Positions 56,861 to 62,243 of a stretch of 64,000 nucleotides of DNA are shown here, in pieces. The notes under the pieces were generated by a model that saw nothing but the letters and a program-made list of their open reading frames with translations, searched no databases and had not been told where the DNA came from. This stretch comes from Paenibacillus sp. FSL H3-0469. GTDB taxonomy: Bacteria; Bacillota; Bacilli; Paenibacillales; Paenibacillaceae. The stretch spans positions 7,688,001 to 7,752,000 of the forward strand of contig NZ_CP150302.1 in NCBI RefSeq assembly GCF_038051945.1, written 5' to 3'. Each line of letters begins with the position of its first letter. Positions within the stretch are counted from its first letter, which is position 1. Position numbers and translations under genes: made by a program.

Positions 56861-57532
56861 ATGAAGAAGAAGATGACTGCTGCACTGACTGCATTTGCCG
56901 TACTTGGAGGAATGGGCACGGGCGTGTATGCCGGAGCCAACCTGCAGGAGATCAAGGCTTTCCTGAATCCAAGCATCAAATTCAAGATGAACGGCCAGCC
57001 CGTACAGCTTAAGAATGGCAGCGGTGCGGTGATTGCCCCAATTTCCTATAAGGACACAACGTATCTGCCGGTCCGTTCCGTATCTGACCTGCTTGGCGTC
57101 ACTGTCAAGTTCGATGCTGCAACTAACACCATTTCTCTTGGAGAGCAGACGGCAGGTGTGCCGATTGCTACAGGCTTTGACAATATGTATCATACCAAAG
57201 ACCCGGGCAAGACTGTATACAAGGACAAGGACTACAAGGATGTATTCTTCGATGACGCCAGCAGCGACCGCGGAAGTTCCTTCATGCTGGAGCCTAACAA
57301 AAAGTATCAGAAGCTCTATCTTCAGATCGCCGCAATTGGCGGGGAGATCAAAGACTTCACGATTCAAGACGCGGACACCAACACTGTGCTGAAGAAGCAG
57401 ACCATTGACCCGGCCAGCGGGCTCACGACCATCGAAGTGGATATTGCCGGAGTCAGCAGCTTGTATCTCACCGGCGATGTGAAGAAGGGAACCTCGGTCT
57501 TCGTTCCGCTTACGACATCTTATTATAAATAA
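56861..57532 (+). CDS. Secreted stalk-domain protein (copper amine oxidase N-like)
   Basis: A 223-residue protein with a signal peptide (MKKKMTAALTAFAVLGGMGTGVYA). A copper-amine-oxidase-N-type stalk domain covers about 35-95 (YLPVRSVSDLLGVTVKFDAATNTI), a fold common in Paenibacillus surface proteins and not a sign of oxidase activity. The C-terminal ~120 residues resemble an NPCBM-like beta-sandwich (SFMLEPNKKYQKLYLQIAAI). GGAGAGGAG precedes the ATG. Probably a cell-surface carbohydrate- or wall-associated protein. Confidence 0.78.
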   Translation: MKKKMTAALTAFAVLGGMGTGVYAGANLQEIKAFLNPSIKFKMNGQPVQLKNGSGAVIAPISYKDTTYLPVRSVSDLLGVTVKFDAATNTISLGEQTAGVPIATGFDNMYHTKDPGKTVYKDKDYKDVFFDDASSDRGSSFMLEPNKKYQKLYLQIAAIGGEIKDFTIQDADTNTVLKKQTIDPASGLTTIEVDIAGVSSLYLTGDVKKGTSVFVPLTTSYYK

Positions 57533-58370: not shown

Positions 58371-58431
58371 CCTTGAGTAAAAAGTGTCGAATTTTGTAAT
58401 TAAGTAGTATACGTCTGGTGCGGCGTGGATA

Positions 58432-58437
58432 TATAAT
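58432..58437 (+). promoter_or_regulatory. Candidate -10 element of the agr-like operon
   Basis: TATAAT 40 bases before the first gene. No TTGACA-like hexamer lies 16-18 bases upstream, which would fit a promoter needing an activator such as the LytTR protein of the locus. Confidence 0.45.
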
Positions 58438-58476
58438 TAATCTTGTAAACGAAAATTAGTCAGGCGGTGTTTTGGT

Positions 58477-59100
58477 TTGTCGTGGGAACCTGTAGGCTTT
58501 ATGTTTTTTTCAACTATAGAGACGCTTGCGCTCTATTATCTGATTATGTCGCTCTTTCGATTCAAATGGAGATGGTACATATGGCAGGCCCTATTCGTCA
58601 TTTTGCTGAACAACCTCCAGAGCTATCTATTACGCAATGAACTGGGCATGTCAAATGTCGCACCACTCGTATTAATCCTGATCTTTATCTTATTCTTTGC
58701 AGCGGTAGTGAGGATGCCTCTAATCTTGTCCATTATTGCAACGATATCAGGATTTGCTATTTTTGCAGGGATTCAGACGTTGATTCTTTGGAGTGTCTTC
58801 GGCTCCGTTTCGAATATCGACAATAAGGCGAACGGGTATTTTCTGCAGGTTGCGACCGCTGCTATTGTCTTTGGAGTATTCGGCTACCTATACCGCAAAG
58901 GCAAAGGCTTCACCTTCGATCTGGATAAACTCCGCTTCAAAATAGAGGATATCTTGCTGTCCGTGCTGATTTGTGCATTTGTAATAGTAGTATCTCTCCT
59001 GCTCTATTACAATGATATTTTGTTAAATGCACTGATTTTTTTGGTTATGTCTGTCTTCCTTCTATACTATTCCACCCGGAAGGAGATGGAAGATGCTTGA
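58477..59100 (+). CDS. AgrC-like polytopic membrane protein without kinase domain
   Basis: A 207-residue protein with six hydrophobic segments filling almost its whole length, like the sensor half of AgrC-type peptide receptors. It ends RKEMEDA directly after the last TM, where a GHKL kinase would begin. The TTG start follows AGGCGGTG. Its stop overlaps the start of agrB by 8 bases, so the two are translationally coupled. Likely role: receptor for the AgrD-derived peptide, or a membrane partner that holds the LytTR regulator. The family assignment rests on topology and context, not on a motif. Confidence 0.6.
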   Translation: MSWEPVGFMFFSTIETLALYYLIMSLFRFKWRWYIWQALFVILLNNLQSYLLRNELGMSNVAPLVLILIFILFFAAVVRMPLILSIIATISGFAIFAGIQTLILWSVFGSVSNIDNKANGYFLQVATAAIVFGVFGYLYRKGKGFTFDLDKLRFKIEDILLSVLICAFVIVVSLLLYYNDILLNALIFLVMSVFLLYYSTRKEMEDA

Positions 59101-59662
59101 ATTCATGTCCGGCAAGCTTGCACTGCGCATCAAACGTATAGTTCCCGAGCATCCGGCATCTGCTACGGTCCTGAAGTTTGCTATTGCGGTCATCCTTAAT
59201 GCGTTATTTATTATTGGGCTGACACTGGTGTTGTCCCTTCTGACGGGCAGGACAAAGGAGACTATTCAGATTTTGATCTCCTTTGCCTTATTGCGTCAGG
59301 TATCCGGCGGGTTGCATCTGAAATCGGGAATGGCCTGTGTCTTGTTTACAGCAACTTTGTTCACGTTCTTGTCCTTCATTAAAGCAGGAGATACAATGAT
59401 TCTGCTTATGAATGGAATCAGTCTATTGATTGTACTGTGGCTGGCCCCTATCGGAATCGAACGCCAGACCCGGATTCCCAGACAGCACTGGCCTAAGCTC
59501 AAAGTCATAGCAGTAATGCTTGTTATGGCCAATGTGGTGGCAGGTTCACCGGTGATTGCTGCCAGTTTTTTGGCTCAATCGATCAGTCTGCTTATTGCTA
59601 GAAGGGGGGTGAGAACTGAGAATGAAGGGGTTACAGGCTCTACGACGCACAGTAGTGTATAA
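59093..59662 (+). CDS. agrB: AgrB-type peptide-processing membrane protease
   Basis: A 189-residue membrane protein. The AgrB catalytic pair is present in LRQVSGGLHLKSGMACVLF: H75 and C82, seven residues apart as in staphylococcal AgrB (H77/C84). Four or more TMs follow. AgrB cleaves the C-terminal tail of AgrD and closes the ring. AAGGAGATGG precedes the ATG. The agrD start lies within its last 41 bases. Confidence 0.88.
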   Translation: MLEFMSGKLALRIKRIVPEHPASATVLKFAIAVILNALFIIGLTLVLSLLTGRTKETIQILISFALLRQVSGGLHLKSGMACVLFTATLFTFLSFIKAGDTMILLMNGISLLIVLWLAPIGIERQTRIPRQHWPKLKVIAVMLVMANVVAGSPVIAASFLAQSISLLIARRGVRTENEGVTGSTTHSSV

Positions 59663-59765
59663 ACTTGCATCCGGTTTGTCTGCCTTCGCTGCCCTTATCG
59701 TGTTGGTTACAGCAAGTGTATTTTACATTAACCAACCCGAGGTTCCTGAAGAGTTACTTAAATAA
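59622..59765 (+). CDS. agrD: AgrD-type cyclic peptide precursor with ring Ser
   Basis: A 47-residue peptide starting at the ATG at 59622, overlapping the end of agrB in another frame. An amphipathic hydrophobic leader (VYKLASGLSAFAALIVLVT) is followed by a putative core ASVFYI and an acidic tail NQPEVPEELLK. The tail aligns with the staphylococcal AgrD recognition tail (DEVEVPKEL). A five-residue ring S32-V-F-Y-I36 would be closed as a lactone through Ser, not a thiolactone through Cys. There is no Cys in the peptide. Confidence 0.8.
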   Translation: MKGLQALRRTVVYKLASGLSAFAALIVLVTASVFYINQPEVPEELLK

Positions 59766-59782
59766 CATTGGAGTTGATCCCT

Positions 59783-60178
59783 TTGAGCACGATATCTGTT
59801 ACTAGAGACACAGAGGGAAACACTGGTGTATTCTCACTCGATATTGAAAAAATAACTTTTATGGAATTTGAACGGACTATCTATCGGATCATTGTCCATA
59901 CGTACGATCAGACCTTTTATACAGTAGGTACGCTGAAATATTGGCTTAATACCCTGGCCAGTTCAGGATATAATTTCGTTCTAGCAGATAGAAACACGTT
60001 AATTCAGGTTTCTAACATTATCCAGTTGGATAAGACGTTTCATATTGCTTATTTTGGGGAAGACCACAAAGGAGTCGAGCAAAAGTGTTTTCTGTCAGAG
60101 AAGGGCTATAAAGAAATTCTCAAATACGTAAAGACATCCGCATCGGATATTCAATTAGTGGAGCTGCCCCAGTGGTAG
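59783..60178 (+). CDS. LytTR-type DNA-binding protein without receiver domain
   Basis: A 131-residue protein from a TTG at 59783 (GGAG upstream); a TTG at 59768 is in frame. It consists essentially of one LytTR domain: beta strands with FMEFERTIYRIIVHTYDQTF, TLKYWLNTL, then FVLADRNTLIQVSNIIQLDK, the typical closing strand-loop. AgrA-type regulators have a REC domain in front; here it is absent, so phosphorylation control is not possible. Last gene of the agr-like operon, followed by a terminator. Confidence 0.8.
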   Translation: MSTISVTRDTEGNTGVFSLDIEKITFMEFERTIYRIIVHTYDQTFYTVGTLKYWLNTLASSGYNFVLADRNTLIQVSNIIQLDKTFHIAYFGEDHKGVEQKCFLSEKGYKEILKYVKTSASDIQLVELPQW

Positions 60179-60210: not shown

Positions 60211-60262
60211 AAGGCTGACCCTGCGCTGTTCATTCTGAAGCGCCTGGGGCCAGCCTTTGTTC
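60211..60262. terminator. Terminator after the agr-like locus
   Basis: AAGGCTG-a-CCCTG-c-GC ... GC-gcct-GGGG-CCAGCCTT, then TGTT. Convergent with the acetyltransferase gene. Confidence 0.7.
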
Positions 60263-61700: not shown

Positions 61701-62243
61701 AGGGAGAAACAATTTATTCTGGACATTAAAGCCAAGACGGCTGAGGGCAAACGGATCAACATCGAAATGCAACTATTCAATCCATATAATATGGAGAAGC
61801 GGACACTTTTCTACTGGAGTGAGATGTATTACCACCAAATTCAAAAAGGCGACGATTACATTCAATTGAAGAAGTGTGTAACGATCAATATTTTGAACTA
61901 TTCCTGTCTTCCTAATAACCGCCATCATAATATCTTTCGCCTTCGGGAAGATCACACCGGGATTCCACTGAACAATGATCTGGAAATTCATGTAATAGAA
62001 TTAACAAAGCTCGAGGAGCAGGCCGTCCCATTAACTGGTGGTCTGATCAACTGGTTATTATTTCTGAAGGGTGTTGAGCAACCAAACTGGGAGGTGCTGA
62101 CCATGAATGAACCGATGTTGAAAAAAGCAATGGATACGCTGGAGTTCCTGAGTCAGGATGCCGCTACAAGGATGGAGTATGAAGCCCGGATGAAGTATTT
62201 GCGGGATGAGGCGTCTCGGATGAACGGGGCTAAGGCAGAATAA
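61701..62243 (+). pseudogene. N-terminally truncated Rpn/PD-(D/E)XK nuclease (transposase-like)
   Basis: The frame reads ILDIKAKTAEGKRINIEMQL, the D...ExQ catalytic region of Rpn-family recombination-promoting nucleases, and then FNPYNMEKRTLFYWSEMYYHQI, also typical. An in-frame TGA at 61698 closes the frame upstream, and the ~70 N-terminal residues normally present (…DYAFKxxF…) are missing. No start codon with a ribosome binding site precedes the catalytic Asp; the first ATG (61767) lies inside the motif. Probably a decayed copy. Confidence 0.7.

Follow-up and report, generated by a model that had tools for sequence, protein, structure and literature searches.

A kinase-free variant of the agr locus in Paenibacillus, its relatives and their phages

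Four genes on one strand of the window, a stretch of 64,000 nucleotides from the 7.77-Mb genome of Paenibacillus sp. FSL H3-0469, form a locus best described as a variant of agr without a kinase. The agr system is the textbook two-component peptide system. Like classical agr (AgrBDCA of Staphylococcus and other Firmicutes), the locus combines AgrB, an AgrD with a PxxP tail, an AgrC-type sensor, and an AgrA-type LytTR domain. Unlike classical agr, its sensor (designated C) has no kinase, its LytTR protein (designated T) has no receiver, and its genes run C-AgrB-AgrD-T (C-B-D-T) rather than B-D-C-A. We consider it somewhat probable that a peptide acts on C, that C controls T directly without phosphotransfer, and that the operon is thereby placed under positive feedback; the ligand, the contact, the sign of control, and the targets in this reading are all putative. 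The four genes were found where the first-pass annotation had placed them, overlapping or abutting, and their coordinates are collected in Table 1.

Table 1. Coordinates of the locus, of nearby features, and of related proteins; positions refer to the window unless a locus number precedes them.
Feature	Position	Strand	Basis
C, kinase-free AgrC-type sensor, 207 aa, TTG start at 58477, 7 predicted TM helices	58477..59100	+	
AgrB peptidase, 189 aa, His75/Cys82	59093..59662	+	Pfam AgrB, E 2.8e-19
AgrD precursor, 47 aa, PEVPEELLK tail	59622..59765	+	NCBIfam TIGR04223, E 4.7e-8
Predicted signal core Ser-Val-Phe-Tyr-Ile, putative five-residue Ser lactone ring	59715..59729	+	ends predicted from agr chemistry
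T, lone LytTR DNA-binding protein, 131 aa, no receiver	59783..60178	+	Pfam LytTR; Foldseek 4g4k
Conserved promoter element TAAGTAGTATACG, -35 region, candidate T-binding/activation site	58401..58413	+	conservation 5' of C in relatives
-10 box TATAAT, operon promoter	58432..58437	+	kept in relatives
Hairpin, probable terminator 3' of T, possibly shared with converging gene	60211..60257	+	RNA-fold stem, z -1.98, weak
Neighbour with copper-amine-oxidase N-terminal domain, outside core	56861..57532	+	Pfam PF07833
Phage LytTR-type proteins (PHROG 15081)	L260:4651-5019, L261:4654-5019, L262:4648-5004, L263:4653-5018		
AgrC-like proteins with degenerate kinase, agr loci of other Bacilli families	L251:1788-3053, L253:3583-4803, L255:1833-3074		

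No family in Pfam or NCBIfam matches C, and its match in PHROG is to family 15604, labelled membrane protein (E 3.5e-9). In a comparison with AgrC sensor domains, as had been proposed beforehand, the C profile aligned from end to end with 15 canonical AgrC-type sensors (hhalign 98.3%, E 9e-14), while the control comparison of C with AgrB gave 0.2%. By this full-length profile match C is an AgrC-type polytopic sensor, a homologue of the AgrC sensor domain that stops where the kinase begins, at 207 residues and with no HATPase. The first-pass annotation had described a six-helix AgrC-like protein ending at the kinase boundary; the homology and the end point hold, but the AlphaFold2 model (pLDDT 83) has seven membrane helices. 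Judged by loop charges, the N-terminus faces out and the C-terminus lies on the inner side. The best conserved loops of C are the predicted cytoplasmic ones, at 2.9-3.3 bits versus 2.2-2.4 bits outside, and the conserved inner loop is GKGFTFDLDKLR. Searches of the PDB by sequence and by fold returned no credible relative of C; as no AgrC sensor structure was among the matches, they are uninformative about its homology.

T consists of a LytTR domain alone, as expected for the receiver-less regulator first proposed. It scores 26.8 bits against Pfam LytTR (cut-off 22.6) in an open frame of 136 residues, and 36 of 36 aligned members of its family match LytTR and LytTR only. Searched against the PDB, the T profile retrieves Staphylococcus aureus AgrA (E 1.7e-5), and the T model superimposes on the AgrA LytTR domain structure 4g4k (Foldseek E 3.2e-6, TM 0.85 on the target), which places the LytTR fold of the DNA-binding family in T. 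Translation probably starts at TTG 59783, behind a GGAG ribosome site; the alternative TTG 59768 would give 136 aa. The gap between AgrD and T is 2 or 17 nt, depending on which start codon is chosen.

The two peptide-processing components were likewise borne out. AgrB has its catalytic His/Cys pair intact, and the H-x6-C spacing occurs in 136 of 143 AgrB copies, the remainder being shortened copies or H-x5-C. The AgrD-type precursor scores 33 bits against TIGR04223 (cut-off 19) and ends in the charged PxxP tail. Its ring residue and nucleophile is Ser, not the Cys of the classical agr ring (SVFYI-NQ-PEVPEELLK), and Ser stands at the corresponding place in nearly all AgrD of this kinase-free branch. 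A second family, type 2 (L001:2007-2126 and relatives), and most of the phage loci discussed below (L260-L263) have an AgrD in which neither Ser nor Cys occupies the usual ring position; all 22 sequences parsed by eye have Lys at -6 from the PxxP, as in MKPAIHS-PEAPKELRK, and the signal from these precursors may be linear or Lys-based.

The genes are tightly packed, with overlaps of 8 nt between C and AgrB and 41 nt between AgrB and AgrD. The feature had been taken to start at 58432, but that position is the -10 box itself and the true start lies further upstream. A block consisting of TAAGTAGTATACG followed by TATAAT is conserved 5' of C in many relatives. A sigma-70 -35 sequence was sought in the TAAGTAGTATACG region with no match, as would be expected of an activator-dependent promoter, and T would be the protein that binds the block. 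The search of the whole 7.77-Mb genome for T targets through this element gave one perfect match to TAAGTAGTATACG, at the operon, which is also the sole match genome-wide to TATACG-N18-TATAATTA; matches with up to two mismatches are rarer across the genome than those to a reversed-pattern control. The gene with a copper-amine-oxidase domain that lies 5' of the locus in one species group lies just 3' of T in another; besides the window, L097, L098, L100-L102, and L104 have such a neighbour, which is a candidate output, target, or companion of the locus. Also near the locus, at 61767-62243, is a PD-(D/E)XK family transposase protein (Pfam PF12784, E 5.5e-39).

Of 100 genomes from the genus, 78 contain C. 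The four-gene order, which we sought across Paenibacillus genomes as the first-pass annotation had advised, proved to be conserved, occurring in 108 of 152 distinct C loci; no kinase-length extension is present in 149 of the 152 C genes, and the C-B overlap (median 8 nt, 143 loci) and order are near universal. Most sampled loci contain C by construction, and an independent check comes from an AgrB-led sample, picked mostly by short AgrB profile matches, in which a kinase-free C lies just 5' of AgrB in 18 of 20 loci. Among eleven close relatives all four genes are under strong purifying selection, with dN/dS of 0.079 for C, 0.131 for B, 0.073 for D, and 0.152 for T; dN/dS for the type 2 family covers C and B only. 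Since dN/dS is low, order conserved, and length constant, C is not a truncation. The absence of domains on both sides of the phosphorelay would fit a decayed agr locus that had recently lost kinase and receiver, yet dN/dS of 0.07-0.15 in all four genes, a single length class for nearly all C genes, and the single grouping in the AgrB tree described next make that account wildly improbable. Truncation or decay of the locus is ruled out by the low dN/dS together with the constant length of C.

The AgrB of kinase-free loci also forms a tree group apart from that of classical agr. In a tree of 84 rows, all 64 AgrB sequences from kinase-free loci fall in one group (support 94/88), and a single change between kinase-free and kinase-linked states is needed, against a mean of 18 when states are shuffled. 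Branches are long among the kinase-linked rows, so that the placing of these and of the pseudokinase loci described below is unsure; row L229, labelled "kinase?", has an intact H-box and was counted as kinase.

Among the hosts of the locus are Paenibacillus, Cohnella, and a genome that carries the label Neobacillus mesonae. A phylum-wide scan with the C profile found matches only in the window's own genus and family; with seven candidates at most scored per genome, it misses more distant copies, which the AgrB search revealed. In a copy on a Paenibacillus plasmid, T is annotated as a LytTR-family regulator, and 28 loci lie on putative viral contigs.

Phage cassettes were reached through the AgrB search, a phage search with C as query having given no match at E 0.01. 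The order C-B-D-T occurs in phages Abouo, Davies, and Emery and in Paenibacillus phage Harrison. The fourth gene of these cassettes, recorded as "peptidase" or hypothetical, is recognised by the T profile (2e-12 to 7e-8), and in two of the four phages it also exceeds the Pfam LytTR cut-off; the "peptidase" label of PHROG 15081 thus covers T. Several cassettes lie near integrase and repressor genes. Davies and Emery (L261, L263), and one related chromosomal locus (L227), have a tandem pair of C genes 5' of AgrB. AgrB/AgrD and an "AgrC lacking HATPase" were seen in Abouo, Davies, and Emery in 2014 (Hargreaves 2014, PMC3901668). This is the same gene cluster, in which we identify the next gene as T; the part of that paper on which we draw reports neither the LytTR partner nor chromosomal copies. 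Neither the partner nor the chromosomal family was found in the open literature, a search that left most subscription journals and bioRxiv outside it.

Two other kinds of phage-borne peptide signalling invite comparison. Clostridioides difficile phage phiCDHM1 likewise carries agr genes (agr3) in a temperate phage, but there AgrC includes a HATPase domain, and a response regulator gene was not found. What Arbitrium (AimR-AimP, of SPbeta phages) has in common, and with the phage copies alone, is peptide signalling set in a lysogeny module. It employs a linear peptide read by the cytoplasmic receptor AimR, and its proteins are unrelated to those of the agr cassette. No AimR-type receptor is present in the cassette, which holds C, AgrB, AgrD, and T only.

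Evidence bearing on the proposed partnership of C with T comes from loci in which the peptide genes have gone. In several species (L015, L020, L021, L024, L041-L043) B and D are lost or broken while C and T remain intact and under purifying selection, with dN/dS of 0.08-0.16 for C and 0.05-0.10 for T. In L016 and L018 the AgrD frame has no ATG, GTG, or TTG start. Across 55 non-redundant full loci, the partial distance correlation of C with T given B is 0.49, versus 0.21 for B with T given C, and the bootstrap range of the difference is 0.13 to 0.41. The loss of B and D, the co-variation of C with T, and the conservation of the inner loops lend indirect support to a C-T contact. The partnership proposed in the first-pass annotation fares well in so far as C and T are kept without B and D and co-evolve more tightly than B and T do.

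The same data bear on the idea that C, instead of serving as receptor, assists AgrB in export or maturation of the peptide or in self-protection, with T merely autoregulating. In its favour, the partial correlation of C with B given T (0.58) exceeds the other two, C and AgrB overlap in almost every locus, and 25 of the 152 C loci are C-B-D with no adjacent detectable T. Because such loci exist, T may there act elsewhere, or another output may exist. A helper of AgrB, however, would not be expected from homology to the AgrC sensor, nor from a C that remains alongside T after the loss of B and D, and we judge this role for C very unlikely.

The retention of C and T under purifying selection where B and D have been lost would also suit a pair that senses something other than its own peptide, such as membrane state or a foreign peptide, with AgrBD as a linked, T-controlled output, possibly an inter-strain or toxic peptide. 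The known LytTR Regulatory Systems (LRS) answer unknown signals without a peptide (PMC6193735). Against such a pair stand the homology of C to a peptide sensor, the near-universal overlap and order of C and B, and an AgrD strongly conserved in close relatives, unlike a diversifying toxin; we regard it as rather unlikely. The parallel with HdrRM and BrsRM drawn in the original interpretation survives as an analogy of logic, a receiver-less LytTR regulator adjoining a kinase-free membrane protein (PMC6193735), but not in gene order or membrane-protein family. In LRS the regulator gene lies directly 5' of the membrane-protein gene (R-M), four of five Streptococcus mutans LRS membrane proteins contain DUF3021 or DUF2154, and there is no AgrBD peptide (PMC6193735); here the order is C-B-D-T, and DUF3021 and DUF2154 matched none of 43 C members. 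Because gene order and membrane-protein family differ, the locus is not classed as an LRS, though by analogy it may work like one.

A further alternative keeps phosphotransfer: C would sense the peptide but work through an unlinked histidine kinase, for example by forming mixed dimers or by acting as decoy or modulator, and T would be controlled only by its level through autoregulation. The genome does contain 18 GHKL-kinase matches, two of them adjoining LytTR response regulators. The reading frames at all 18 were compared with the C and AgrC sensor profiles without a match (best E 0.3), and no GHKL match coincides with either of the two AgrB genes in the genome; the second AgrB gene (L001) is likewise in a C-B-D-T locus, so that both are kinase-free. 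The main reservation attached to the original proposal was a kinase and receiver elsewhere dedicated to this peptide; no such kinase was found in the genome by this comparison. Two loci do favour a kinase route and count against the C-T reading: in L237 the LytTR regulator that accompanies a kinase-free C has a receiver, and L253 pairs a C-type sensor with a full AgrA-like receiver-LytTR regulator in the order C-B-D-A. The C-B-D loci without T point the same way. Yet C co-varies with T, and the presence of C-B-D-T in phages and many hosts makes a specific host kinase less likely; altogether we hold an unlinked kinase to be unlikely. In one locus, L230, C-B-D-T is followed by an extra response regulator.

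L253 also belongs to a set of three proteins of about 410 residues, each adjoining AgrB, whose N-terminal 200 residues are matched by a profile made from short C proteins only (E 3e-11, 2e-10, and 3.5e-6). In these three the phospho-acceptor His is replaced by Lys, Lys, and Arg, while it is His in 15 of 15 canonical kinases. Pfam HATPase finds none of the three, against 5e-18 for a canonical neighbour. Judged by these residues and profiles, they look like pseudokinases, and they share the C-B-D order. With canonical, pseudokinase, and kinase-free sensors all found, three forms coexist: sensor with intact kinase, sensor with dead kinase, and sensor alone.

The direct control of T by C that we favour would proceed as follows. 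AgrB would cut AgrD, releasing a small cyclic peptide, which by agr chemistry is probably SVFYI closed as a Ser lactone, perhaps preceded by one or two further residues. C, related to a peptide receptor by homology, would presumably bind it and signal to T through direct contact at the membrane. In the simplest version C would keep T inactive and free it on peptide binding; with the opposite sign, C would activate T when peptide is present. Acting at the conserved -35 element, T would then switch on the operon that encodes it, a positive feedback, and would probably act on a few other genes as well.

The wide occurrence of this four-gene design in Paenibacillus, its relatives, and phages suggests a direct receptor-to-gene switch, of which the literature searched holds no earlier description or test. 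In its most general form the proposal is of peptide quorum sensing free of phosphotransfer: a 7-TM receptor akin to the AgrC sensor would gate a minimal LytTR factor directly, an arrangement common to chromosomes, plasmids, prophages, and temperate phages of Paenibacillaceae and related Bacilli, with phage copies that could serve lysogeny decisions; for this broader statement we find the balance of belief and doubt about equal. A branch so widespread, with signal, sensor, and DNA-binding domain retained but neither phosphorelay module, would show the relay to be dispensable, and a kinase-free agr would link agr with the poorly understood LytTR regulatory systems. The locus is a compact four-gene switch, amenable to rebuilding in a laboratory host. 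It also accounts for phage genes annotated as "hypothetical" and "peptidase", and raises the question of whether phages decide on lysogeny by this cassette.
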